The notes beneath the pieces are model-generated. The model was not told the origin of the DNA and did no database searches. It was given only the letters and a program-made list of their open reading frames with translations. The position numbers and the translations under genes are program-made. A DNA stretch of 64,000 bases, from NCBI GenBank assembly GCA_019449655.1, contig JAHQXD010000003.1, forward strand, positions 388,577-452,576, read 5' to 3'. Numbering within the stretch: position 1 is the stretch's first letter; each line of letters starts with the position of its first letter. This document shows positions 1-61,117 of this stretch, piece after piece. The DNA is from Ferrigenium straubiae (GTDB lineage: Bacteria; Pseudomonadota; Gammaproteobacteria; Burkholderiales; Gallionellaceae).

Positions 1-76
1 GCCTTCTTTTTGGTTACTTTTTCTTGGCGACGCAAGAAAAAGTGACTAGCTGCCGGGCTACCCCCGGCGGTTTTGG
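1..76. repeat. Dispersed structured repeat, partial copy 1
   Basis: Almost identical to the sequence at 36691-36766, so this is a dispersed repeat cut by the window edge. It forms two hairpins. The first has arms at 16-25 and 34-43 around the loop GGCGACGC, and the second pairs GCCGGG (52-57) with CCCGGC (63-68). The arms of the first stem differ between the two copies but remain complementary. No gene is supported in 1-159; the downstream neighbour of the regulator (often hemC in related genomes) lies outside the window. Confidence 0.8.
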
Positions 77-159
77 GTTTGATTGTCTGGATTCCGGCCT
101 GCGCCGGAATGACGGTTGCCCTTCGATGCCTCAGGGCGAACGGCTGATTCACGACAACC

Positions 160-960
160 TCAACTAAACTCCTTCACGATATGCTGCTGCCTCCGGCTGA
201 TCGCCAGCAACTCCTCCAGCCCTTTCAGCTTCACCATCCACCCGCTCCCCTCACCTTCCTCGCTGCCCTTCTCGAAGCCCGCTATCGCCTCCTTTGCCAC
301 CAGGCAGTTGCGGTGCACGCGCACGAAGCGCGTGGCGAATTCCTTCTCCAGCGCGGAGAGCGATTCTTCGAGCAGGTATTCGTGCTCGGCGGTGCGCACG
401 GTGACGTACTTCAGCTCGGCGCGCAGGAACAGCACCTGCTCGATGGGCACGAGGTGGATCTTGCCGCGCTCGTGGATGGATAGGAATTTGCGCGGCTCGG
501 GGAGCAGGTCGCGCAGCACCTCGGTCTGCACCGGCACGACTTCGCGCGCGCGGGTGAGCGATTCAAACAGCCGCTTCAGTCGGATCGGCTTGAGCAGATA
601 GTCGATGGCATGCACCTCGAAGGCCTTGATCGCGTAGGTGTCGTAAGCGGTGGTGAAGATGATGACGGGCGGCCACTTCGCCACGCCCCCTTCGGCTGTG
701 CCCAGGATAGGCCTGGGCATCTTCTGGATATGCTGCGCAAGCTCGATGCCGTCCATCTGCGGCATGCGGATGTCCAGCAGCACCACGTCGACGGGCACCT
801 CCATCAGCAGGTCCAGCGCCTCCTGGCCGTTGCCCGCCTCGCCCACCACCTCCAGCGCCAGCTGGTCGCTGCAATCGTGCAGCAGGTCGCGCAGGCGGCT
901 GCGCGCGGGCGGCTCGTCGTCCACGATGAGGATGCGCAGGGGCAGTTCGACGGTGCTCAT
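160..960 (-). CDS. LytTR-family response regulator (AlgR-like)
   Basis: 266-residue two-component regulator. An N-terminal receiver (about residues 8-130) has the acidic pair D14/D15 in IVDDE, phospho-acceptor D63 in LLDIRMP, the T/A switch in FTTAYD and K124 in LLKP. A LytTR DNA-binding domain follows (about 160-262, with FLSIHERGKIHLV and FVRVHRNCLV). It is the likely partner of the kinase gene just upstream, whose stop codon overlaps its ATG by 4 nt (ATGA). The start is chosen at [16 protein letters not shown]; the frame stays open further upstream but only inside the kinase gene. Residues 82-96 look like extra sequence between helix 3 and strand 4 of the receiver, encoded by a palindromic repeat (see findings). 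The AlgR-like assignment rests on domain order and the argH neighbourhood. Confidence 0.9.
   Translation of the reverse strand: MSTVELPLRILIVDDEPPARSRLRDLLHDCSDQLALEVVGEAGNGQEALDLLMEVPVDVVLLDIRMPQMDGIELAQHIQKMPRPILGTAEGGVAKWPPVIIFTTAYDTYAIKAFEVHAIDYLLKPIRLKRLFESLTRAREVVPVQTEVLRDLLPEPRKFLSIHERGKIHLVPIEQVLFLRAELKYVTVRTAEHEYLLEESLSALEKEFATRFVRVHRNCLVAKEAIAGFEKGSEEGEGSGWMVKLKGLEELLAISRRQQHIVKEFS
673..719. repeat. Palindromic repeat inserted in frame in the response regulator
   Basis: An inverted repeat (TGCCCAGG at 699-706, CCTGGGCA at 712-719) lies inside the receiver domain. The adjoining bases (cttcgg...aggatagg) resemble the cttcgacaggctcaggacagg family seen at 61036-61062 and 50511-50600. 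It adds about 13-15 residues between QKMP and PPVIIFTTAYD without breaking the frame. Confidence 0.65.
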
Positions 961-2000
961 AGGGTTTGCTCCTTCATGTACGGCAATGTGATTTCGACGC
1001 GGTAGAAGTCCGCGCCGTTCTCGACCTTGTAGCGCGCCTCGACGTCGAACAGCAGGGCGAGGCGCTCGCGGATGTTCTGCAGCGCCATCTTGTTGCCGGA
1101 ATGCGGCGCGGCCTCGCGCGCCGTGCAGGGATTCTCCACCCCGATCCGCAACTCGTCGCCGCTGCGGTACAGCGCGACGGTGATGCTGCCGCCCTGCGGC
1201 AACGGCTCGATGCCGTGGTACACGGCGTTTTCCAGCAGCGGCTGCAGCAGCAGCGGCGGAATCAGCGCATCGTCCGGCACGTCCCGGATTTGCCAATCCA
1301 CGCGCAGCCGTTCGCCCATGCGCAATTGCTCCAGGGCGATGTATCGCCTGCCCAGCTCGATCTCCTGGCGCAACGGCACGAAGTCCTGCGCCTCCGCCAT
1401 CGCCATGCGGAACAGGTCGGACATATCCTCCAGCGCGGCCTCGGCCTGTTTTGGCTGGGCGCGCACGATGCTGAGCACGGCGTTGATGGTGTTGAACAGG
1501 AAGTGCGGCCGGATGCGCGCACGCAACACCTGCAGGCGCGCCTCGTGCAGGGCGCGCGACAGCACCTGGCTGCGCCAGCGGAAATACACCAGCAGGATGC
1601 CGCACACCAGCACGCTGAGCAACAGGTAGCGCACCGCGTCAAACCAGCCGCCGTCGCGCTCCAGCGGGCGATACAGATCGCCGCCGAAATAATAGGTGGC
1701 CAGCGTCACCACCGCCGCGAGAGCGCTCACCGCCAGTGCGCCGCGCCAATAGGCAAGCCGGGCCAGCCACGGCTGCGCCGCCCACAGCAGCAACAGGCAG
1801 GAGAGCAGCACCGGCGTGAGCAGTGTGGCGATCTGCATCATGCGCGACATCACGTCCGCCCATCCATACGCCTGCAGCAGCGCCTGCAGCAGTGCCAGGC
1901 CGTTGCTGATCAGCAGGATGCGCAAGGTCACGCCGAGGTTGCGAAAGTTGGGCAACGCGTCGGGCAGGGTGTTTTGTTTTATACTGCGCGCCTTATTCAT
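957..2000 (-). CDS. LytS/AlgZ-type sensor histidine kinase
   Basis: 347-residue membrane kinase. Several hydrophobic segments (roughly residues 25-45, 55-75, 85-105 and 122-140) form the membrane part. The His_kinase domain follows with [12 protein letters not shown], phospho-acceptor H166, and an HATPase domain with the N-box [12 protein letters not shown] (about 250) and a shortened G region. The HFLFN signature is that of the LytS/YehU/AlgZ family, which partners LytTR regulators, as here. Its 3' end overlaps the regulator by 4 nt, so the two are translationally coupled. It is divergent from argH with about 43 bp between starts, and the argH -10 motif falls inside its first codons. The signal is unknown. 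Confidence 0.9.
1980..1992 (+). promoter_or_regulatory. Putative -10 element with GCGCGCC discriminator for argH
   Basis: TATACT is followed directly by GCGCGCC, about 52 bp before the argH ATG. The same arrangement precedes metK and the gene at 44918. No convincing -35 element was found. Confidence 0.45.
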
Positions 2001-2043
2001 GGCGGGAAATCTTACCGTTTTTCGGGGACAAGTGGGGGCGGCA

Positions 2044-3429
2044 ATGCAAGATAAAGATACCTGGTCGGGGCGATTCTCGGAGCCGGTGGCGGAACTGGTG
2101 AAGCGCTACACCGCATCGGTGGACTTCGACCACAAGCTGGCCATGTTCGACATCCAGGGTTCGCGCGCGCATGCGCAGATGCTGGCCGCCTGCGGCATCA
2201 TCGGCGCGCAGGACCTGGACGACATCCGGCGCGGCCTCGCGCAGATCGAGAACGAGATCATCGTCGGCGATTTCGCCTGGTCGCTCGACCTGGAAGACGT
2301 GCACCTCAACATCGAGAAGCGCCTCACGATGCTGGTCGGCGATGCCGGCAAGCGCCTGCACACCGGGCGCTCGCGCAACGACCAGGTAGCAACCGACGTG
2401 CGCCTCTACCTGCGCAGTGCGATCGACGACCTGCTGCACCTCATCAAGGCGCTGCAGACCGCACTGCTCGACCTCGCGCAGCACCACACGCATACGATCA
2501 TGCCCGGCTTCACCCACTTGCAGGTCGCGCAGCCGGTCAGCTTCGCGCATCACCTGATGGCGTATTTCGAGATGCTCAAACGCGATGCGGAACGCCTGCA
2601 GGATGCGCGCCGCCGCGTGAACCGCCTGCCGCTTGGCGCGGCGGCGCTGGCCGGCACCAGCTACCCGATCAAGCGCGAGATGGTGGCTGAATTGCTGGGC
2701 TTCGAAGGCGTCTGCGAAAATTCGCTGGATGCGGTTTCGGATCGCGACTTCGCGATCGAATTCACCGCCTGTGCCGCACTGATCATGACGCATTTGTCGC
2801 GTTTCTCCGAGGAACTGATCCTGTGGATGAGCCCGCGCTTCGGCTTCATCGACATCGCCGACCGCTTCTGTACCGGATCAAGCATCATGCCGCAGAAGAA
2901 AAACCCCGACGTGCCGGAACTGGTGCGCGGCAAGACCGGGCGCGTGAACGGCCACTTGGTCGCGCTGCTCACGCTGATGAAGGGCCAGCCGCTGGCCTAC
3001 AACAAGGACAACCAGGAAGACAAGGAGCCGCTGTTCGACACCGTGGAGACGCTGACGCAGACGCTGCGTATCTACGCCGACATGATAGGTGGCATCAAGG
3101 TCAAGCCGGAGGCCATGCGCAGCGCAGCCTTGCAGGGCTATGCCACCGCGACCGACTTGGCCGATTACCTGGTGAAGAAGGGGCTGCCGTTCCGCGATGC
3201 GCATGAGGCGGTGGCACTCGCGGTGCGCTACGCCGAACAGAAAGGCTGCGACCTCACCGACATCGGTCTTGCCGACTTGCAGCAATTCTCCGCACTCATC
3301 GATCAAGACGTGTACCAGGTGCTGTCGCTGGAAGGCTCGCTCGCCAGCCGCGACCACACCGGCGGCACCGCACCGAAACAGGTCGAAGCCGCCATCGCAC
3401 GAGCCCGCGCAAATCTCGCTAAATCCTAG
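2044..3429 (+). CDS. argH: Argininosuccinate lyase
   Basis: 461-residue enzyme of the fumarase/aspartase superfamily. It cleaves argininosuccinate to arginine and fumarate, the last step of arginine synthesis, in the cytoplasm as a homotetramer. Visible motifs are the N-terminal [20 protein letters not shown], the central [11 protein letters not shown] and the superfamily signature [12 protein letters not shown]. Length matches the family. The frame extends upstream to 1816, but homology starts at [11 protein letters not shown]; the ATG at 2044 follows a G-rich stretch (gtgggggcgg) as a weak ribosome site. It is transcribed divergently from the sensor kinase and followed by a hairpin region and no further plus-strand gene. 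Confidence 0.97.
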
Positions 3430-3473
3430 GCAAAAAAATGGGCGACCAGGGGTCGCCCAAATAGGAGGAGAGT

Positions 3474-3503
3474 ATGAAAAGTAGAGTTGTTACCAACATC
3501 TAA
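3474..3503 (+). CDS. Nine-codon mini-ORF (MKSRVVTNI) with strong ribosome site
   Basis: ATG at 3474 lies 4-5 nt after an AGGAGGAG ribosome-binding site, the best-looking one nearby, and the reading frame ends after nine residues. A downstream CTCCTCC could mask the ribosome site, which suggests a regulated leader or a small RNA rather than a functional peptide. I do not recognise it. That it is translated is inference from the ribosome site alone. Confidence 0.35.
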   Translation: MKSRVVTNI

Positions 3504-3678
3504 CCCAGACACTCGGAGCGGACTATATCCACTCCTCCCTCCAATTCATATATGTAAAAATACCTATATATTTCGGCCTAGTCATTTCGGATAGCCCATC
3601 GGCCTAGTTCTTTTGAAATGCTTGCTTTACCCTTTGCCGGGGATGTTTTGACCAAAACAGCTTGTACCCCTGCAAATT

Positions 3679-3710
3679 GAAGCGGCGCCCGAGGGCGCCG
3701 CTTCGTTATT
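3679..3710. terminator. Putative bidirectional terminator between argH and grxD
   Basis: Perfect 12-bp stem (arms 3679-3690 and 3693-3704) between the convergent argH and grxD genes, followed by a short T-rich tract on the plus strand. The weak T run lowers confidence. Confidence 0.6.
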
Positions 3711-3734
3711 CAGGGCTGGAGGATTGCCCGAAAA

Positions 3735-4052
3735 TCAGGCGTTTTCCAGCAACTGCTTGAGTTCACCGCTCTGGTACATCTCGGTCATGATGTCCGAGCC
3801 GCCGACGAATTCGCCCCCGATGTAAAGCTGCGGGATAGTCGGCCAGTTGGCGTAATCCTTAATCCCCTGACGGATTTCCTCGTCCCGCAGCACATCCACG
3901 GTGAACAGGTCTTTCACGTCCAGTGCCTTCAGGATGCGTATTGCGTTGCCGGAAAAACCGCATTGCGGAAACTGCGGGGTGCCCTTCATGTACAGCACCA
4001 CCGGGTGCGTGGTGACTTGCTCGTGGATGCGTTGCCGGACGTCTGTGCTCAT
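3735..4052 (-). CDS. grxD: Monothiol glutaredoxin, Grx4/GrxD type
   Basis: 105-residue CGFS glutaredoxin. This class carries and transfers [2Fe-2S] clusters with glutathione and BolA-type partners in the cytoplasm. The active site reads PQCGFSGNAIRIL (Cys near residue 32), with WPTIPQLYIGGEFVGGSDI following; these form the glutathione and cis-Pro region (TIPQ). Length is typical of single-domain GrxD. It stands alone on the minus strand, convergent with argH, between two terminator-like hairpins. The start follows from the conserved N-terminus. Confidence 0.96.
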   Translation of the reverse strand: MSTDVRQRIHEQVTTHPVVLYMKGTPQFPQCGFSGNAIRILKALDVKDLFTVDVLRDEEIRQGIKDYANWPTIPQLYIGGEFVGGSDIMTEMYQSGELKQLLENA

Positions 4053-52295: not shown

Positions 52296-53204
52296 TCAGC
52301 GCGGTTCGATCTGCGACAGGTGCCGCGCCACCGACAGCCACGCCCCGAGCCATCCGAGGTAGACCGAGAACAGCAGCAGCGACAGGCTGTCGCCGGGGGA
52401 CAGCGGACGAAGCGTGAGCGAGCTGCCGTAGAGTTGCGACAGCGCGCCGAGCTGCGCGTTGAGCAGCAGCAGGCTGAGGGTGACGATGAGCCAGGCCATG
52501 ATGCCGCCGAGCAGGCCCTGCGCCGCGCCGAAATAGAGAAAGGGGCGGCGGATGAAGCCGTCGGTCGCGCCGATCAGCCGGGCGACCTCGATCTCGTCGC
52601 GCTGCGTGAGGATCTGCAGGCGGATGGTATTGAAGGTGACGGCGACCAGCGCGAGGCTGAGCAGGCTGGCGAGGATCAGCACCCCCATGCGTCCGAATTT
52701 GAGCAGAGCTTCGAGCTTGTAGGCCCAGGCCGAATCGAGCTGCGCCTCGGCGATTTTCGGCAGCTTCGCGAGTTCGCCGCGCAACGCATCGAGCGATTGC
52801 GCATCGCCCGGTTTGGGATGGACGACGAAGGCATCCGGCAGGGGGTTCTGCTGCAGCCCGCCGATCAGGTCGGCGAGGCCGGTACTCTGCTTGAGCTGCT
52901 CCAGCGCCTGCGCGCGCGGGACGAATTCGACGCCCGCGACGGCTGAGTGCTGTACCAGCTGTTTGTGCAGCCGGTCGATGTCTTCGGCCTTCGCATTCAT
53001 CTCCAGGAACAGGCTGATCTGCGGCGTGCCGGAGAACTGTGCGACCAGCCCCTGCGCATTCTGCAGCAGCGCATACAGGCCGGCAGGCAGGCTGAGCGCG
53101 ATGCCGATGACCAGGATGTTGAGGAACCCGGCCAGCGGGGATGCGAACATGCGGCGCAGTACGGCGCGCAGTACGCCGAGGCGCTGGGCGAAGGCGCGCG
53201 TCAT
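52296..53204 (-). CDS. ftsX: Cell division protein FtsX
   Basis: 302 residues, inner-membrane partner of FtsE. One N-terminal helix (about 23-45), a periplasmic domain (about 50-165, with PQISLFLEMNAKAEDIDRLHKQL) and three further membrane helices near 170-195, 220-245 and 270-292 make the FtsX/MacB-like fold. FtsEX regulates periplasmic peptidoglycan hydrolases during division. Its start overlaps ftsE by 4 nt. Confidence 0.97.
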   Translation of the reverse strand: MTRAFAQRLGVLRAVLRRMFASPLAGFLNILVIGIALSLPAGLYALLQNAQGLVAQFSGTPQISLFLEMNAKAEDIDRLHKQLVQHSAVAGVEFVPRAQALEQLKQSTGLADLIGGLQQNPLPDAFVVHPKPGDAQSLDALRGELAKLPKIAEAQLDSAWAYKLEALLKFGRMGVLILASLLSLALVAVTFNTIRLQILTQRDEIEVARLIGATDGFIRRPFLYFGAAQGLLGGIMAWLIVTLSLLLLNAQLGALSQLYGSSLTLRPLSPGDSLSLLLFSVYLGWLGAWLSVARHLSQIEPR

Positions 53205-53851
53205 TGCAGCACGCCCTCTTTCAGCGCGAGGCGGCGCACGCCGCTGTCCCGCAGCACGCTCTCGTCATGGGTGGAGATGAGCAGGGTCGCGCCGACCTGG
53301 TGGAAGGAACTGAAGATCGCCATGATCTCGCGCGCGTAATCCGCATCGAGGTTGCCGGTCGGCTCGTCGGCCAGCAGGATGGCCGGGCGGTTGACGATGG
53401 CGCGCGCGATGCACAGGCGCTGCTGCTCGCCGCCGGAGAGCGCGATGGGATTGGCCTTCTCGCGCCTGAGCAGGCCGACCTTGTCCAGCGCGGCGCGCAC
53501 CCGCTTGGCGCTCTCGCGGTGGTCGAAGCCGCAGATTTGCAGCGGCAGCAGCACGTTGTCGAACACGCTGCGGTCGAACAACAGCTTGTGATCCTGGAAC
53601 ACGATGCCGAGGTTGCGGCGCAGGTAAGGCAAGGCGCCGCCCTTGAGCGCGCCGACGTTCTGGTTGTTCACCAGCACGCTGCCGGAATTGGGCCGCTCAA
53701 TCGCCGCGATCAGCTTGAGCAGCGTGCTCTTGCCCGCGCCGGAATGCCCGGTGAGGAACACCATCTCGCCCTCGGCGATGTCGAACGAGACGCCCTTCAG
53801 CGCCTCGTAGCCGCCGGGATAACGCTTGTGGACCTGGTTGAAGGAGATCAT
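53201..53851 (-). CDS. ftsE: Cell division ATP-binding protein FtsE
   Basis: 216 residues, ABC ATPase. Walker [14 protein letters not shown], signature [15 protein letters not shown], Walker [13 protein letters not shown], and N-terminal [25 protein letters not shown]. Works with FtsX. Normally ftsY lies just upstream; here about 6.3 kb of foreign-looking DNA separates them. Its ATG overlaps the stop of a 29-codon ORF (ATGA), so it may be translationally coupled to that leader. Confidence 0.97.
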
Positions 53852-53937: not shown

Positions 53938-54061
53938 GATCGTCGCTTTTGCTGATGCTAGCCGCTCGCTGCGGAGAAAGCAATTTTGCGTGCCGGCGGT
54001 GGAACATTGGGTGGACTGAAGGCCTTTACCGGGGAAACTGCTGCCCACCGCGCCACCATTG

Positions 54062-54085
54062 AAAATAGGCCGTTCGGCATATTGT
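54062..54085. repeat. Second copy of the 10240 repeat
   Basis: Same string as at 10240-10263, AAAATAGGCCGTTCGGCATA plus TTG. It marks the left part of the island and precedes the 82-bp direct repeat. Confidence 0.7.
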
Positions 54086-54120
54086 TTTTTGATGGGAATG
54101 CTGAAACACTGCGCCGCATT

Positions 54121-54202
54121 ATTCGAATGCTGTGGGGAAAGCATGGTCTATCCCCCAAATACTTGTGTTGGGAAATTATTGTGATGCTGCCCCATTTAAT
54201 TG
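54121..54202. repeat. 82-bp direct repeat, left copy
   Basis: About 90% identical by eye to 55071-55152, starting ATTCGA..TGCTGTG and ending TTTAATTG, and including GCATGGTCTATCCCC and TACTTGTGTTGGGAA. With its partner it brackets the ORF6N remnant and the toxin-antitoxin genes. Confidence 0.85.
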
Positions 54203-54204
54203 CT

Positions 54205-54360
54205 ATGTTCCAGCTTTCGGCTGAAGAATTCACAGCTTTGAGGTTCCAATTTGGCACCTCAAACTTGAAATCACAATTTGTGACTTCAAACGAAACACCC
54301 TCCGAACGCGGCGGACGCCGTTATGCCCCTTACGCCTTCACCGAACAGGGCGTCGCCATG
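54205..54360 (+). pseudogene. ORF6N-domain protein remnant
   Basis: The frame reads MFQLSAEEFTALRFQFGTSN ... SERGGRRYAPYAFTEQGVAM, a core piece of the ORF6N domain found in phage antirepressor-like and DNA-binding proteins. Both the beginning and end of the domain are missing, and the upstream part is replaced by the 82-bp repeat. The following residues (TPVTLCLLKQYG) no longer match. It is therefore a decayed fragment, probably of prophage or mobile-element origin. Confidence 0.75.
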
Positions 54361-54430
54361 ACGCCAGTCACTTTATGCCTCCTCAAGCAATACGGGTTGA
54401 CGCACCGTATCCCAAAGAATACACTGCCTC

Positions 54431-54721
54431 ATGAAGTCCATCCTGACCACGGAGGTCTTCGATACCTGGTTCGCAAACCTGAAAGACAAGCAGGCATCGC
54501 GCCGCATCCAGGTACGCATCGACCGGGCCGAGGATGGCAACTTCGGCGATTGCAAACCCGTGGGCGAAGGCGTCTCGGAAATGCGCATCCACCATGGGCC
54601 GGGCTATCGCGTGTACTTCATGCAACGGGGGATGGAAATCGTCATCCTGTTGGCGGGCGGAGACAAATCCACCCAGACAAAAAACATCAAGACCGCGCTG
54701 GAAATCGCGCGTCAAATTTAG
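54431..54721 (+). CDS. HigB/RelE-like toxin of a type II addiction module
   Basis: 96 residues. Pattern TTEVFDTWFANLKDKQASRRIQVRIDRAEDGNFGD, SEMRIHHGPGYRVYFMQRG and VILLAGGDKSTQTKNIKTALEIAR matches the Gp49-like/HigB family of addiction-module killer proteins, which act as ribosome-dependent mRNA interferases. It is followed after 9 nt by its antitoxin, with a typical toxin-first order for this family. The module is flanked by 82-bp direct repeats. Confidence 0.9.
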   Translation: MKSILTTEVFDTWFANLKDKQASRRIQVRIDRAEDGNFGDCKPVGEGVSEMRIHHGPGYRVYFMQRGMEIVILLAGGDKSTQTKNIKTALEIARQI

Positions 54722-54730
54722 GAGGCCATC

Positions 54731-55024
54731 ATGACAAAAACCAAACTGAAAAAATGGGACAGCGCCGAACACCTGAAAACCGATGAGGACATGGTGCTCT
54801 ATCTCGAAGCCTGTCTCGAAGAAGCAGGCGATGATGCCGCCTTCATCGCCAAGGCGCTCGGCAACATCGCCCGCGCCAAGGGCATGACCCAACTGGCAAA
54901 GGAAACCGGGCTGGGGCGTGAAAGCTTGTATAAGGCGCTATCGGGAGAGGGCAACCCAAGTTTTGCAACTATCCTGAAAGTGACGAATGCGCTGGGGATC
55001 AAATTGCATGCACAAAGCGCTTAG
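54731..55024 (+). CDS. HigA-like HTH antitoxin
   Basis: 97 residues. An N-terminal part contacts the toxin (KTDEDMVLYLEACLEEAGDDAAFIAKALGNIARAKG), then an HTH (MTQLAKETGLGRESLYKALSGEGNPSFATILKVTNALG) of the XRE/COG3636 type. It neutralises the toxin and probably represses the pair. The ribosome site taggagg lies just before the ATG. Confidence 0.92.
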   Translation: MTKTKLKKWDSAEHLKTDEDMVLYLEACLEEAGDDAAFIAKALGNIARAKGMTQLAKETGLGRESLYKALSGEGNPSFATILKVTNALGIKLHAQSA

Positions 55025-55070: not shown

Positions 55071-55152
55071 ATTCGATGCTGTGTGGAAAGCATGGTCTAT
55101 CCCCTAAATACTTGTGTTGGGAATTTAATGTGATGCTGACCCCGTTTAATTG
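55071..55152. repeat. 82-bp direct repeat, right copy
   Basis: Partner of 54121-54202. The nearby sequence repeats shorter motifs (GCGATGCTGACCCCC at about 55046, GTGATGCTGACCCCG at about 55130, GCGACCCTAGCCCC at about 55174). The gap 55025-55228 holds no gene. Confidence 0.85.
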
Positions 55153-55228: not shown

Positions 55229-56068
55229 ATGAAACTAAAGCCATTCATTCGTTGGGCCGGGAGCAAAAGACAACTTGCCCCCCTATTGTCCTCATGCTGG
55301 CCAGGCAACGATTATCGTTATATCGAGCCATTTATGGGCTCTGCGTGCGTGTTCTTCTCAATTTCACCAACACGTGCATTACTATCAGACATTAACGCTG
55401 AACTTGTTGGCATGTTTGAAGCGGTTCGTCAAACACCAGAGGCTGTATATGCCTCACTATTGAGCATCCCTGTTGGTGCCGAGAGTTATTACATCATTAG
55501 AAAGATTGATCCGAACTCACTCGCCTCAACGGATCGCGCCGCACGCTTCATTTTTTTAAATCGTTATTGTTTTAATGGCCTTTACCGCACAAATCTAAAA
55601 GGAGAGTTCAACGTCCCTTATGCGAGCTCAAAGACAGGGGGGCTTCCCACTTGGGATGCTTTTGTTTTGGCTGCGAACATGTTAAAGAACGTTGATATTA
55701 AGTGCGGGGATTTTGCCTCTATACTGGCAAACGAAGTGAAGGCCGATGACTTTATTTATCTGGATCCACCCTATGCCGTCCAGAATGAAAGGATTTTCAG
55801 CCAATATGGCCCGCAAACATTTGGCCTTAACGATCTCGAACGCCTGCGAGATACTCTGATACAAATTGATTCTATTGGCGCCAAATTCCTGTTGTCTTAT
55901 GCAAACAGTCAAGAGGCCAAGCTTTACTTCCGCGATTGGCACAACACTACTGTTGAAGTACAAAGAAACATTGCTGGCTTCGCAAAACATAGGCGAAGAG
56001 CATCTGAAGTCCTAGTCTCAAATTTCGACTGTGAATCTCTTGCCAACTTCAGAAATGACCAACCTTAA
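55229..56068 (+). CDS. D12-class N6-adenine DNA methyltransferase
   Basis: 279 residues. SAM and catalytic motifs of the Dam/D12 family: FIRWAGSKRQL (residues 6-16), YIEPFMGSACVFF (31-43), FLNRYCFNGLYRTNLKGEFNVPY (109-131) and catalytic DPPY at 179-182. No fused restriction domain. It is the first gene of a tight four-gene operon. It may methylate a site to protect host DNA from the co-encoded factors, or may act as an orphan enzyme. The recognition site is unknown. Codon use is much less GC-rich than in flanking core genes. Confidence 0.92.
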   Translation: MKLKPFIRWAGSKRQLAPLLSSCWPGNDYRYIEPFMGSACVFFSISPTRALLSDINAELVGMFEAVRQTPEAVYASLLSIPVGAESYYIIRKIDPNSLASTDRAARFIFLNRYCFNGLYRTNLKGEFNVPYASSKTGGLPTWDAFVLAANMLKNVDIKCGDFASILANEVKADDFIYLDPPYAVQNERIFSQYGPQTFGLNDLERLRDTLIQIDSIGAKFLLSYANSQEAKLYFRDWHNTTVEVQRNIAGFAKHRRRASEVLVSNFDCESLANFRNDQP

Positions 56069-57290
56069 AATCGCGATCATTAGTGATCTTCATATTGGGC
56101 ACGGCGTAAGATCTAAAGATCTCAGCCCCCATGCCGACACAAATGGAATTGACGAGAAATATCTTCTGAAATTCCTTGAATTTGTTAAGTCAAAAAACAT
56201 ACAAGCAAACTACTTAGTAATTCCTGGAGACATTACAGGGAAAGCTCATCCAGATGAATTTAAGCTCGCATCAAAAGTAATATTGCAGATTGGTACGGCT
56301 CTCGGCGTGCCTGAAGAAAAGATTTTATTTGTGCCCGGCAATCATGATAAAAATTGGGATGCAAAACCAGCTGGGGAAAACGACACAACAGGTTTTTATG
56401 CCAAGCAAATGTATGCGCCACTTCAGCACGAAGATTGGTTTTTTGAGCACACGATGCGTCGCTCGCCACACCACATGTTGTCTGACAATTGTTTGGGGGT
56501 TTGGACTTTTGAGGATTTGATTCTAGTTGGTTACAACTCTTCAAATCACGATGATCGAAACACAAAGGTACATCATGGCCTAATCACAGAATCTTCATTG
56601 CAATGGCTTGACGCACAACTTCAAACAATGGACTTGGCAAAACAAAAATTAAAAGTTTTTCTAGTTCACCACCATCCAATTCAATACAGCGATCACATTC
56701 CAGATACACCCGACTTTAGTGTAATGACAAATGCGGAAAATCTGCTTAACCTTTTAACAAAGTTCAAGTTCGATTTGCTGCTGCATGGCCATAAACATAT
56801 GCCTCACTTCAAAACACAAATTACAAACTCTAGTTTTCCGCTCGTAATTTTAGGCGCTGGTAGCTTTTCATATCAGCTTGAGTTGACCTACAACCAACAT
56901 GCAAGCAATCAATTCCATTTATTGGAAATCGAGGGGCGAGACGATGAAGAAGAGTGCATCTTCGGTCTCTTGCGCAACTGGGCATACTTAAGTGGACACG
57001 GCTGGAAGGCAAGTCAAAAACATGACGGAATTTTGCACCAACTTGGGTTCGGCACATACGCGTCGCCAACAATACTAAAGAAGAACTTAGTCCAAAAAAT
57101 CCAAACACTCTTCCAAAAAACTGATTATGTGCGTTGGCTTGATCTCGTGACACAGGAAAGCAAATTGGGTTACATACACCCTGATTGCGTCATGCTTTTA
57201 TTAAAAGAAATTAGCGCCGAAATTGGCGTCGAATGTCATGGCGAAATTCCCGATAACGCAATTTTGCTTCTACCACGGAAGGCAAACTAA
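56055..57290 (+). CDS. Calcineurin-like metallophosphoesterase
   Basis: 411 residues from the ATG at 56055 (an ATG at 56031 is possible). All metal motifs are present: SDLHIGHG (D11, H13), GDITG (D59), GNHDKNW (97-101), VHHHP (H205 region) and HGHKHMP (245-248). The N-terminal 290 residues form the phosphoesterase. The C-terminal 120 (after NQFHLLEIEGRDDEEE) are unassigned. It could be a nuclease (Mre11/SbcD-like) or a nucleotide phosphodiesterase. It overlaps the methyltransferase by 14 nt, and the ATPase starts 1 nt after its stop. Confidence 0.88.
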   Translation: MTNLKIAIISDLHIGHGVRSKDLSPHADTNGIDEKYLLKFLEFVKSKNIQANYLVIPGDITGKAHPDEFKLASKVILQIGTALGVPEEKILFVPGNHDKNWDAKPAGENDTTGFYAKQMYAPLQHEDWFFEHTMRRSPHHMLSDNCLGVWTFEDLILVGYNSSNHDDRNTKVHHGLITESSLQWLDAQLQTMDLAKQKLKVFLVHHHPIQYSDHIPDTPDFSVMTNAENLLNLLTKFKFDLLLHGHKHMPHFKTQITNSSFPLVILGAGSFSYQLELTYNQHASNQFHLLEIEGRDDEEECIFGLLRNWAYLSGHGWKASQKHDGILHQLGFGTYASPTILKKNLVQKIQTLFQKTDYVRWLDLVTQESKLGYIHPDCVMLLLKEISAEIGVECHGEIPDNAILLLPRKAN

Positions 57291-57291
57291 C

Positions 57292-59052
57292 ATGGAAGAT
57301 ATACTAAAACGAAACCTCTTTGAAGTTGAGAATGCTAGAAACTTGTCTTCTATTGAGGTTGTAAACACGTTTGTCCCAACCAAATCTTTTTGGCGATTAC
57401 TGTCCCCCAAAAACCATATCGTTCTTGGTGCGCGCGGATCGGGCAAGACTGAACTTGTGAGGATGCTAGCGCACGACCACCTTTCTCAGTTTGATGATAA
57501 GCGCGCAAAGGAAATCATTCAGCGAAAAGAGTTCATTGGCATCTACGTCCCAACAAGATTGGAATGGGTTGGCGGATTGAAGAACAAACAATGGCAAACT
57601 GAAGCAGAGGCCGAGAAATTTTTCCAATGGCGACTAAATATATCCACTTGCGCCGCATTATTAGTGACGCTAAAAAGTTGCCTTGACACCTATATCAAAA
57701 ACCATGGTGACCGTGCGCGCACAGAGCGCGATTTGGCAAGAGCACTTTATAAAACATGGACTGACAACCCAGAGGGTTCATGCGAAACGATTTTTGCATT
57801 ACATGAATTACTGGAAGACATTGAACACGGCAAACAGGCTCAGATCACACGCGCGCGCATAACGGGGATTGCGACCAGTAATGAATTAATGATCGGTGCA
57901 TATTTCGAATCTGAGCTTTTTTCCCCCCTAAGAAGGGCAATAACGCTTGCATCACGAGCTCTCGATTTTCCAGAAAACTCCGTATGGATGCTATGTCTCG
58001 ACGAGGCTGAATTTCTTGAACCTCATCACCATAGAATCCTCAACTCACACCTACGAGCACATCCCGGGAACTTGGTCTTCAAGATCACAACCATGCCCTA
58101 CTACCATCACACACTTGAAACAAACATGAACGCTTGTCTAAACGTTGGACACGATTTCGAATACATCTACATTGACAAGGACCCGATAGAATTTCTGCCG
58201 AGTGAGGACAGCGGTGAGTATTTCGCAAAAATGCTCTTTAACAAGCGCGCAGAACAATCGGCGGGAGATTACAAGTGGGAAGATTTTGAAGCATTACTAG
58301 GCGCCTCCGTACTGCTTGATTCTAGAATCAGTGACTGGTCTGCGGATTCAAAAATGATGGCCCTAATGAAAAAACATGCCAACTCGGCTACACAAGCGAG
58401 AGCAGGTCGTCTGGCCGGCACACCCGATTTCAAAGATCAAATTTCAAGAAAAATTCACGGTGCACTCCTGCTTCGAGAGGCGGTTGCACAAAAGCGTGGC
58501 CGCGCAGAGCTGGATGTTTACTCTGGCATTAGAATGGCAATAAGGTGCAGTGATGCAAACCCAAGAAGACTAATTCGCATTATTAACCTTTTCATTTCTG
58601 AGCGAGGAAAGAGCGAAACGCTTAACCAGATTAAGCCACAACGTCAAACAATGTTGTTGACTGCCTTTTCAAACAGCACACTGAGTCGAGTACAAAGTGA
58701 GCCACAAAACGGCCCAGATTTGTATAAGTTCTTATCTGCTGCCGGTAATTATATGCGACGGGATTTACATGACAACCTGCTTGGTACTGACCAAGTTTCA
58801 TCCATAGCGATCGATGTCCCAATCACCGACAATGAGTGGACCGTGATCAAAAATGCCGTAGGTCTTGGGCTTCTCTACCCAAATATTAATGCCAATAGTG
58901 GCGATCAAATGCCTGAGCGAATTGGTGTCTTTCGTCTAGCCTACGTACTTGCTCCTAACTTTAAAATTCTGCCGCGAAAAGGCAAACCAGTGTCGATCAA
59001 ACGCATTAATCAGCAGGCTGACATACTAGTGCTACAGAATACCAAATCATGA
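57292..59052 (+). CDS. P-loop ATPase, ORC/CDC6-like
   Basis: 586 residues. An N-terminal segment (NARNLSSIEVVNTFVPTKSFWRLLSPKNHIV) leads to Walker A GARGSGKT (46-53). Walker B is MLCLDEAE (233-240). The rest has an AAA+/STAND-like helical C-terminal half with RRLIRIINLFISERGKS, a sensor-2-like part. It resembles ATPases annotated as ORC-CDC6 family, several of which occur in bacterial defence loci (from memory). The start at 57292 is chosen because the frame upstream lies inside the phosphoesterase gene. Likely a switch that senses or loads on DNA; inference. Confidence 0.85.
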   Translation: MEDILKRNLFEVENARNLSSIEVVNTFVPTKSFWRLLSPKNHIVLGARGSGKTELVRMLAHDHLSQFDDKRAKEIIQRKEFIGIYVPTRLEWVGGLKNKQWQTEAEAEKFFQWRLNISTCAALLVTLKSCLDTYIKNHGDRARTERDLARALYKTWTDNPEGSCETIFALHELLEDIEHGKQAQITRARITGIATSNELMIGAYFESELFSPLRRAITLASRALDFPENSVWMLCLDEAEFLEPHHHRILNSHLRAHPGNLVFKITTMPYYHHTLETNMNACLNVGHDFEYIYIDKDPIEFLPSEDSGEYFAKMLFNKRAEQSAGDYKWEDFEALLGASVLLDSRISDWSADSKMMALMKKHANSATQARAGRLAGTPDFKDQISRKIHGALLLREAVAQKRGRAELDVYSGIRMAIRCSDANPRRLIRIINLFISERGKSETLNQIKPQRQTMLLTAFSNSTLSRVQSEPQNGPDLYKFLSAAGNYMRRDLHDNLLGTDQVSSIAIDVPITDNEWTVIKNAVGLGLLYPNINANSGDQMPERIGVFRLAYVLAPNFKILPRKGKPVSIKRINQQADILVLQNTKS

Positions 59053-59981
59053 AGCTTACCTCCATAAACGACATCACATTTGAATCTGCCAAAGCCAACA
59101 CATATGACTTGGCAATCTTTGCTTGTGGATATGAGTCACGCTGCCAATTTATTTCCTCTCAACTCAATCATTCCAATATCAATAGGCAGCTAATATTTGG
59201 TTTTGAATTTGTTGGCGATGCCATGTTGCGAGCTGAAAGCGACAAGCACTTCCAACAAAAGTGGGGGATAGCCCCAACAATTCTGCCCTCCCCAAATGAA
59301 TTGGAGGTGTATAGGTTATTAAATCAGGAAATTCGCGATTCTAAGGCGAAGATCTCTCGTGTCCTTGTAGACTATTCTTCAATGAGCCGCTCGTGGTATG
59401 CCGCCATCCTCAATTGGTTCAGGTTCAGTGAATTGCAGTCTGAAGTTGTCGTCGACTTCGTCTATTCAGCCGGGGAGTATTCTGGTGACTTTGCTCCCAT
59501 TTCTGTCGAAAGCATTTTGCCTTTGCCAGGTTGTGAGGGGTCGTCAGGGACTGTTACTAAATCTATAGCAGTCATGGGCCTTGGTTTTGAAAATCTCGCC
59601 CCCCTCTGCGTTTTAGATAAATTGCAACCAGATGAAATATTCGCATATTTTGCATCCCCATCCCTAAATGAAAGCTATCCCACCATTGCGCGCAGCAAGA
59701 ATAAGGAATTGATTGATGTAGCAAGGGAGACGCTTGAACTTCCGCTAACAAGTATCGAGCTGACTGTTGCAAAATTGGCTGAAGTTATTTCGCCGTACTT
59801 AAAAACCGCGGATATAACTTTTGTTCCAATGGGACCTAAACCACATGTATTAGCAACAATTTTATTGGCCATCAGATTCAACCAAGTCACCTGCTTGCAT
59901 GTGCATGGTAAATGTCAAAATATCGCGGACATTGTTGCTAGCGGTGATGTGATCGCAACAAGCCTGCAATTTAGACATTAA
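59049..59981 (+). CDS. Unrecognised protein, possibly Rossmann-like, fourth gene of the operon
   Basis: 310 residues, ATGA overlap with the ATPase gene. The alternating strand/helix pattern with YDLAIFACGYESRCQF (19-34), RQLIFGFEF (46-54), KISRVLVDYSSMSRSWYAAIL (101-121), VVVDFVYSAGEYSG and KSIAVMGLGFENLAP suggests one or two Rossmann-like domains, reminiscent of ligand-sensing folds such as CARF. No signal, membrane helix or known catalytic motif. It is the least known member and may sense a signal, act as an effector, or confer specificity. I cannot assign a family. Confidence 0.7.
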   Translation: MKLTSINDITFESAKANTYDLAIFACGYESRCQFISSQLNHSNINRQLIFGFEFVGDAMLRAESDKHFQQKWGIAPTILPSPNELEVYRLLNQEIRDSKAKISRVLVDYSSMSRSWYAAILNWFRFSELQSEVVVDFVYSAGEYSGDFAPISVESILPLPGCEGSSGTVTKSIAVMGLGFENLAPLCVLDKLQPDEIFAYFASPSLNESYPTIARSKNKELIDVARETLELPLTSIELTVAKLAEVISPYLKTADITFVPMGPKPHVLATILLAIRFNQVTCLHVHGKCQNIADIVASGDVIATSLQFRH

Positions 59982-60130: not shown

Positions 60131-61117
60131 TTACTGCTCGTCCAGCCCCAGCAGCGCCTCGACAAAATCCTCCACAACGAACGGCCTGAGGTCGTCCAGC
60201 CCCTCGCCCACGCCGATGAAGCGCACCGGGATCGGGTGCGCCCTCGCAATCGCGGCGATCACGCCGCCCTTGGCGGTGCCGTCGAGCTTGGTCAGGATCA
60301 GGCCGGTCACGCCGAGCGCCTCGTCGAAGGCCTTGACCTGCGAGAGCGCGTTCTGGCCGGTGTTGGCGTCGAGCACCAGCAGCACCTCGTGCGGGGCCTC
60401 GGGCAGTGCCTTGGCAATCACGCGCTTGACCTTCTTGATCTCTTCCATCAGGTGCGCCTGCGTGGTGAGGCGTCCGGCGGTGTCGGCCAGCACCACGTCG
60501 ATCTTGCGCGCCTGCGCGGATTGCACCGCGTCGTAGATCACCGCGGCGGCGTCGCCGCTCTGCTGCGCGATGACCGTCACGTTGTTGCGCTCGCCCCAGG
60601 TCATCAACTGTTCGCGCGCCGCGGCGCGGAAGGTGTCGCCAGCCGCGAGCAGCACCGACAGCCCCTGGCCCTGCAGGTATTTTGCGAGCTTGCCGATCGA
60701 GGTGGTCTTGCCCGCGCCGTTCACGCCGCACATCATGATGACGAAAGGTTTATGGGTTTCAGCCTGCAGCGGTTGCGCGAGCGGCCTGAGCAGCTTGAGC
60801 AGGCAGTGCGCGAGCGCCTCCCTGAGCTCGGCCGCCTCGCTCAGGCGATGCTCCTTGACGTAATAGCGCAGATCGGCGAGCAGCGCATTGGTCGCGTCCA
60901 TGCCGACGTCGGCGGTGATGAGGATGGTCTCCAGTTCCTCGTAGAGGTCGTCGTCGATCTTGCCGCCGCGGCCGAACAGGCCGGTCAACTGGTTGCCGGT
61001 GCGCGCCAGCCCGGATTTCAGGCGCGCGATCCAGCCCTGTCCTGAGCCTGTCGAAGTGGCGTTGGCGGGTTTTTCTTCGGGGGCACCGGACGGATTTTTT
61101 TTCAGGAAGCTGAACAT
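60131..61117 (-). CDS. ftsY: Signal recognition particle receptor FtsY
   Basis: 328 residues. A short N-terminal part (1-45) precedes the N domain and the G domain with MCGVNGAGKTTSIGKLAKYL, DTFRAAAREQL, VLADTAGRLTT and TKLDGTAKGG. It receives SRP-ribosome complexes at the inner membrane. The acidic A domain is nearly absent. Residues about 21-28 (TSTGSGQG) are encoded by a copy of the cttcgacaggctcaggacagg repeat. The start is at MFSFLKKNPSG; the frame continues upstream without homology. Downstream, where ftsE is expected, lies the island. Confidence 0.97.
   Translation of the reverse strand: MFSFLKKNPSGAPEEKPANATSTGSGQGWIARLKSGLARTGNQLTGLFGRGGKIDDDLYEELETILITADVGMDATNALLADLRYYVKEHRLSEAAELREALAHCLLKLLRPLAQPLQAETHKPFVIMMCGVNGAGKTTSIGKLAKYLQGQGLSVLLAAGDTFRAAAREQLMTWGERNNVTVIAQQSGDAAAVIYDAVQSAQARKIDVVLADTAGRLTTQAHLMEEIKKVKRVIAKALPEAPHEVLLVLDANTGQNALSQVKAFDEALGVTGLILTKLDGTAKGGVIAAIARAHPIPVRFIGVGEGLDDLRPFVVEDFVEALLGLDEQ
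61036..61062. repeat. CTTCGACAGGCTCAGGACAGG repeat within ftsY
   Basis: Plus-strand CCTGTCCTGAGCCTGTCGAAG is read on the minus strand as codons for TSTGSGQ in the flexible N-terminus. Same family as 50511-50600 and 673-719. Confidence 0.8.

Follow-up and report, generated by a model that had tools for sequence, protein, structure and literature searches.

Here we describe a four-gene cassette in the genome of Ferrigenium straubiae (Gallionellaceae). It lies in a 64,000-nucleotide (nt) stretch of assembly GCA_019449655.1, contig JAHQXD010000003.1, positions 388,577 to 452,576 of the forward strand (the window). The cassette encodes a Dam-family adenine methylase, a calcineurin-like phosphoesterase, an ORC/CDC6-like ATPase and a tandem CARF protein. 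We conclude, with moderate confidence, that it is a mobile and modular anti-phage cassette: an immune switch of STAND-like type that is guarded by methylation, is gated by the CARF protein and can take different effectors. As part of the same reading, and at the same moderate level of confidence, the ATPase and the CARF protein form a constant core around which effector and methylase can be exchanged.

The ATPase is a clear member of PF24389 (2.6e-100, 337 bits against a curated cut-off of 27). The Walker A lysine and the Walker B aspartate are present in 23 of 24 aligned ATPase rows, and the other row has a gap at the site. When the ATPase profile was compared with the PDB sequences, the 60 matches listed of 365 were short P-loop stretches throughout. 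In the available text of PMC8195603, the STAND NTPases are placed within the CDC6/Orc clade. An earlier note on this DNA proposed that the last protein of the cassette (P0004) senses, and its sequence now allows a more specific prediction, that of a tandem CARF protein. It matches the PADLOC CARF6 model PDLC01912 at 7e-68 and 11 more CARF6 models, and CARF6 models are also matched by all eight relatives scanned. Structure comparison likewise identified a tandem CARF arrangement of the CARF-type Rossmann fold, and R31 and K264 are invariant in all 25 rows. The fold and these conserved residues lead us to presume that the protein binds a nucleotide ligand. The CARF profile had no match among the PDB sequences.

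The ATPase and its CARF partner are mostly found together. Counting the host, 3 of the 300 genomes sampled from the order have a relative of P0004. In the phylum sample PF24389 is above its cut-off in 14 genomes of 398, and in the class sample 7 genomes of 369 reach 1e-10, with the host again counted in both. A CARF gene adjoins or is fused to the ATPase in 19 of the 23 non-host loci that were found through the ATPase (9/13 in the phylum sample, 6/6 in the class sample and 4/4 in plasmid records; the ATPase found five plasmid records, and that of the S. meliloti SM11 plasmid was left out). Together with six other loci, and with near-identical copies merged, these give 25 distinct loci (L numbers) including the window. 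The six were found through P0004 (L005, L006, L039, L055 and L056) or through the phosphoesterase (L103), and five of them hold a CARF gene by construction. Left out of the 25 were L003 and L004 (which coincide with L055 and L056), L045 (a near-identical copy of L044 in a second genome), the SM11 plasmid, and L051-L054 and L057, which are weak PF24389 matches without CARF. Six of the 25 loci are plasmid-borne and come from a plasmid-only collection. The CARF gene lies on the same strand as the ATPase in 26 of 26 rows, at a distance of -104 to +6 nt (longest open frames; three rows are duplicates), and at 263 nt on the 3.6-kb contig L102.

The full order Dam, phosphoesterase, ATPase, CARF is found in the window, in Pseudomonas capsici (L006), on plasmids of Cupriavidus (L037), Methylobacterium (L038) and Sinorhizobium (L041), and in a genome of the host's own order (L055). 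In L056 the Dam gene is placed downstream of CARF. Because the same order recurs in five loci of distant taxa, with L056 as a variant, the four-gene set goes beyond chance; the expectation that the genes would be found together in unrelated genomes is thus borne out. As a separate observation, L053 (genome G353, positions 1-3874) has a weak PF24389 match with no CARF recognised, an N6_Mtase gene upstream and a downstream gene cut by the contig end, and may belong to a diverged branch of the system.

The gene next to the core is variable. The effector slot holds a phosphoesterase in 10 of the 25 loci (the window, L006, L037, L038, L039, L041, L044, L055, L056 and L103), PRTase-CE (PF24390) in six (L040, L042, L047, L048, L050 and L097) and HD-CE (PF24391) in three (L043, L046 and L099). 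A protein kinase is fused to the ATPase in three more (L049, L100 and L101) and a ParA-like domain in one (L098); the slot is lost to contig ends in L005 and L102. L049 is a single chain of 1,239 residues in the order kinase-ATPase-CARF. Its Pkinase match, at 24.6 bits, is under the Pfam cut-off, and the PADLOC CARF_STK_AAA model matches it at 1471 bits. The ATPase-CARF pairing, the kinase fusion that follows the gene order and the exchange of effectors together indicate that the pair is the switch and the variable gene its output. Two members of the slot are unusual. In L098 (7079-9919) the ParA/MinD-like P-loop domain is N-terminal to the ORC-like ATPase and is either an unusual effector or a partitioning part. 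The PRTase effector of L042 (8330-9214) also matches PADLOC PRTase_III-A models (best 5.9e-20), a possible link to the accessory genes of type III-A CRISPR.

In the ATPase tree the window pairs with L006 (100/100) inside a seven-row phosphoesterase clade (98/96). L056, L044 and L039 make up another phosphoesterase clade (100/99), which is separate and placed among loci of the PRTase, ParA-like, HD and kinase types. The tree has several long branches, and its deep order is uncertain. Over 22 loci the distances among the ATPases and those among the CARF proteins have a correlation of 0.87; 0 of 2000 shuffles reached this value, which owes part of its size to shared ancestry.

We infer a defence activity, a guarding role for methylation, a ligand, an effector substrate and an order of events as follows. 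The Dam-family enzyme would mark the host DNA. The ORC/CDC6-like ATPase, judging from its family, would be the switch that assembles on or surveys unmarked DNA, such as replicating phage DNA. The tandem CARF protein would bind a nucleotide ligand and gate the ATPase, and the activated ATPase would release the effector encoded in the adjoining slot. Here the effector would be a dimetal phosphoesterase. It would act by hydrolysis of phosphodiester bonds, in either nucleic acid or nucleotides, and would thereby stop phage growth or the cell itself.

The methylase of the cassette matches PF02086 at 5.8e-45 and is a member of the Dam family by TIGR00571 (206.9 bits, cut-off 114.85). Its closest solved relative is the DpnII methylase (2dpm, 9.7e-45), which together with E. 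coli-type Dam relatives suggests a GATC specificity. Leaving out L005, L099 and L102, the flanks are visible in 22 loci, and in 14 of them a DNA methylase stands immediately beside the core. Seven of the 14 are Dam, three are of the N6_N4 type, three are N6_Mtase-like and one is a C5 methylase; the N6_Mtase-like call in L097 is based on a match of low score (MTS, 26.6 bits). Since methylases of different kinds are exchanged, some mark on the cell's own DNA seems to matter, as in restriction-modification. This lends support to the earlier suggestion that the methylase marks self, though the marking is a presumed step. Elsewhere, L046 has a C5 methylase at a distance of about 6 kb, and in L103 a gene annotated as a SAM-dependent methyltransferase is about 4 kb off. 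Three PRTase loci have a HAD-hydrolase-type protein of about 640 residues in the methylase's stead (L047, 12032-13975; L048, 13083-14993; L050, 11829-13751), possibly a different accessory module of PRTase-CE-ATPase-CARF loci without a recognised methylase.

The phosphoesterase matches PF00149 at 1.2e-13 over residues 4-250 of 411 and carries about 160 extra residues at the C-terminus. Its motif residues are kept in 12 of 12 aligned rows. The domain is similar to that of NF053862, the DS9_1 anti-phage phosphoesterase (4.4e-31, residues 6-254), yet the protein is not a DS9_1 member because its 108 bits are far below the cut-off of 420. In the available text of PMC7159879, calcineurin-superfamily phosphoesterases are the commonest variable effector in one class of NTP-dependent conflict systems and are predicted to be nucleotidyl phosphodiesterases. 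Of 20 plasmid records that match the phosphoesterase, the loci of seven were examined, and four of these (L037, L038, L041 and L103) have the ATPase and CARF. Similar phosphoesterases occur on Klebsiella and E. coli plasmids. On an Enterobacter plasmid (L105, 4398-6880), where ATPase and CARF genes were not found at the locus, a HAD hydrolase comes after a related phosphoesterase, next to Hachiman HamA and a restriction endonuclease.

Two other accounts of the phosphoesterase have to be weighed. In the first, the cassette is a variant of restriction-modification: the phosphoesterase is a DNA nuclease of the Mre11/SbcD type that the ATPase loads onto unmethylated DNA, and the CARF protein is no more than a scaffold or an allosteric subunit. 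This would fit the adjacent methylases, and SbcD/Mre11 chains do match the phosphoesterase profile (6e-5); there is also a PADLOC match to an 'Endonuclease' effector (6.3e-8 over 67 residues). However, the closest solved relatives are Lmo2642 (2xmo, 3e-21) and then Rv0805 (4e-12), both far closer than SbcD, and the PRTase, HD protein and kinase that take the same slot are no known restriction nucleases. Among the Pfam and PADLOC matches of the four proteins there is no restriction endonuclease family, although the phosphoesterase could be a nuclease. We regard this account as unlikely. In the second, the phosphoesterase is an off-switch that degrades the CARF ligand in the manner of a ring nuclease, and the real effectors are the ATPase or functions of the host. 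Lmo2642 and Rv0805 have cyclic-nucleotide phosphodiesterase activity, and CARF proteins elsewhere come paired with ring nucleases, both of which would suit such a role. It is hard to picture the kinases and PRTases that take this slot elsewhere as ring nucleases, and this second account seems to us quite improbable.

The neighbours of the related loci are often defence genes, contrary to the concern that homologues might sit mostly in housekeeping contexts. A PADLOC match (at most 1e-15) was found for 8 of 20 large neighbours, hand-picked from 13 loci, as against 0 of 10 large control genes taken elsewhere in the window, the control being small and drawn from a single genome. The eight come from six loci and include a partial MzaA match and a reverse transcriptase (L006), a type III restriction enzyme and HEC-01 (L101), DpdF (L097), mad3 (L042), the C5 methylase of L046 and a type IV restriction enzyme (L103). 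In L039 the annotated neighbours include an anti-phage dGTPase and a restriction endonuclease. Mobility genes are also near: a transposase in L037, a recombinase in L038, an integrase and an IS701-like transposase in L041, and a resolvase in L099.

Neither Cas10 nor a CD-NTase is among the Pfam matches of the four cassette proteins. A SMODS CD-NTase is above cut-off in one of 18 carrier genomes, which is not the host. The Cas10 palm model is above cut-off in six of the 18 carriers, including the host, and also in five of 14 controls including E. coli. Strong and nearly full-length palm matches are limited to G744 and G347; the best host match has 28.6 bits against a cut-off of 27 and covers positions 57-131 only. 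The partial matches are probably GGDEF proteins, because the E. coli control matches as well. Since SMODS and strong Cas10 matches are rare among carriers, the system is apparently not linked to type III CRISPR or CBASS. More tentatively, and as a possibility rather than an expectation, we suggest that the tandem CARF protein and the ORC/CDC6-like ATPase form a split STAND-like receptor, and that CARF sensing would have a large second role beyond CRISPR. Its nucleotide would come from neither Cas10 nor a SMODS CD-NTase; it would be kept off self by varied methylation (N6A, N6A/N4C-type and C5) and would fire one of at least five effectors. The ligand could then come off unmethylated DNA through the system's own enzymes.

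Several observations weigh against an immune switch built on an ATPase-CARF core, in addition to the limits given above for the distance correlation and for the neighbour count. No CARF gene is present in four of the 13 non-host genomes above the PF24389 cut-off (G607, G512, G353 and G635), in which the PF24389 match is limited to the surroundings of the P-loop, nor in G664, which is under the cut-off. No adjacent methylase was recognised in 8 of the 22 loci (the neighbours of L039, L044 and L103 had no Pfam scan), so that the methylase is not obligatory. Related phosphoesterases occur without ATPase and CARF in L104, L105 and L106. The Foldseek E-values for the CARF fold are modest (best 2.3e-4) and the top row is an unrelated transporter. 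The structure model of the phosphoesterase is poor (pLDDT 62) and unfit for a structure search. The Pfam matches point to no ligand-making enzyme or nucleotide cyclase among the four proteins.

The cassette shares features with several known systems. The ATPase is a clear PF24389 family protein whose relatives have PF24390 or PF24391 in the slot, whereas here the slot has a phosphoesterase, with Dam in front and a CARF gene behind. We take PF24389, PF24390 and PF24391 to be predicted conflict systems, and the consecutive accessions suggest that the three were described together. The likeness to the CARF6 group (PADLOC PDLC01910-01925) extends to both sequence and tandem fold, and the kinase-AAA-CARF fusion exists there as a PADLOC model. 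As differences from that group, the sensor here is a separate protein beside an ORC-like ATPase, and neither Cas10 nor any other type III gene was recognised in the cassette. The layout of Avs proteins is a single chain of effector, STAND and repeat sensor. The cassette resembles Avs and other STAND receptors in its effector-ATPase-sensor order and exchangeable effectors, with one relative as a single chain, but its genes are mostly separate and the sensor is a CARF protein instead of a repeat domain; the resemblance would be one of working principle only. The available text of PMC4012209 (Makarova 2014) seemingly describes the kinase-AAA-CARF architecture. BREX, in the available text of PMC12839542, combines a DNA methylase, AAA+ ATPases of the STAND/ORC-Cdc6 kind and a phosphatase partner, a layout that the cassette shares, but PglZ, BrxC and PglX are absent from the PADLOC matches of the four proteins.

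Neither the four-gene set nor the methylase exchange was found in the available text of the literature searched, and the likeliest source papers lie outside this search; the set is not described in the available text of PMC8565338, PMC8649781, PMC9503650, PMC7824862 and PMC9704534. A comparison with the profile models of PADLOC 2.0, rather than with its system definitions, named the methylase and CARF6 and was otherwise weak. The earlier note had proposed a candidate new defence system, and its interpretation is supported in part. The four-gene set is recurrent, as such a proposal would have it, but it is probably not wholly new: this kind of system has been noticed before, because the accessions PF24389-24391 are consecutive and already curated and CARF6 is already in PADLOC.

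The coordinates of the cassette and of the features around it are collected in the table. The start of ftsY was computed from the length of its product, an FtsY homologue of 328 residues counted from its own start.

Table. Features of the cassette and its surroundings (positions in the window)
Feature	Position	Strand	Basis
Dam-family D12 N6-adenine DNA methyltransferase	55229..56068	+	PF02086, TIGR00571 matches
Calcineurin-like metallophosphoesterase, effector slot	56055..57290	+	PF00149 match
ORC/CDC6-like P-loop ATPase	57292..59052	+	PF24389 match
Tandem CARF protein (CARF6 group; P0004), presumed nucleotide sensor	59049..59981	+	CARF6 profiles, fold
ftsE, left border gene of insertion	53201..53851	-	FtsE homologue
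ftsY, right border gene of insertion	60131..61117	-	FtsY homologue, 328 aa
Direct repeat copy 1, 67 nt	54127..54193	+	Direct-repeat comparison
Direct repeat copy 2, 67 nt	55076..55142	+	93% identity to copy 1
Toxin, Gp49 (PF05973)	54431..54721	+	Pfam, E 1e-7
Antitoxin, HI1420-type (PF21716)	54731..55024	+	Pfam, E 4.4e-30

The earlier description of the locus is confirmed. The four genes are on the same strand, with a 14-nt overlap, a 1-nt gap and an ATGA overlap at the successive junctions. They are AT-richer than their flanks: the GC fraction per kilobase is 0.41-0.46 over 55-60 kb and 0.60-0.68 over 51-54 and 60-64 kb. The kilobase of the toxin-antitoxin pair has 0.535, and other low values in the window are 0.52 (10-11 kb) and 0.54 (36-37 kb). 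The insertion, of which the cassette is a part, does split a core locus. The genes ftsE and ftsY are 6,279 bp apart in the host, whereas they adjoin in 27 of 29 family relatives (gap or overlap of at most about 140 nt); in the other two no ftsY was found within 1.5 kb of ftsE. FtsE was matched in 40 family genomes including the host, and 30 loci, the host and the 29 relatives, were compared. The ATPase and the fourth gene each have a single match in the host genome. Again as part of the overall reading, the cassette has more probably than otherwise moved horizontally. Promoter and terminator scans of the cassette gave matches no commoner than in shuffled sequence, leaving co-transcription without support. 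The Gp49/HI1420-type toxin-antitoxin pair is upstream of the cassette and bracketed by the two 67-nt repeats. It may be an inserted unit of its own, because the 25-nt core of the repeat (at most two mismatches) has two copies in the host genome, both at this locus. To the left of the toxin is an open frame (53986-54430) that presumably resembles a truncated phage-type ORF6N/KilA-like DNA-binding protein.

The setting also bears on a reading without defence, in which the genes serve mobile elements as a module for replication, copy number or maintenance. Replication control involves both ORC/CDC6 proteins and Dam, and the plasmid-borne loci and the adjoining toxin-antitoxin pair would suit such a module. 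Yet the host copy is in a chromosomal setting between ftsE and ftsY, effectors and methylase classes are exchanged, and defence genes are nearby. The ATPase has no relative in phage records by tblastn, and pattern scans of viral contigs, which reach near relatives only, confirmed none for the ATPase, CARF or phosphoesterase. We consider a module of this kind very doubtful.

If the anti-phage switch proposed here is correct, it would bring together three themes that are mostly met separately: self-marking by methylation, ATPase switches of the ORC/STAND type and nucleotide sensing by CARF proteins in the absence of CRISPR. It also raises the answerable question of which ligand is bound by a CARF protein whose cassette has neither Cas10 nor a CD-NTase. 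With its effectors exchanged round an ATPase-CARF core, the system would make a clean experimental platform that combines one sensor-switch with many outputs.

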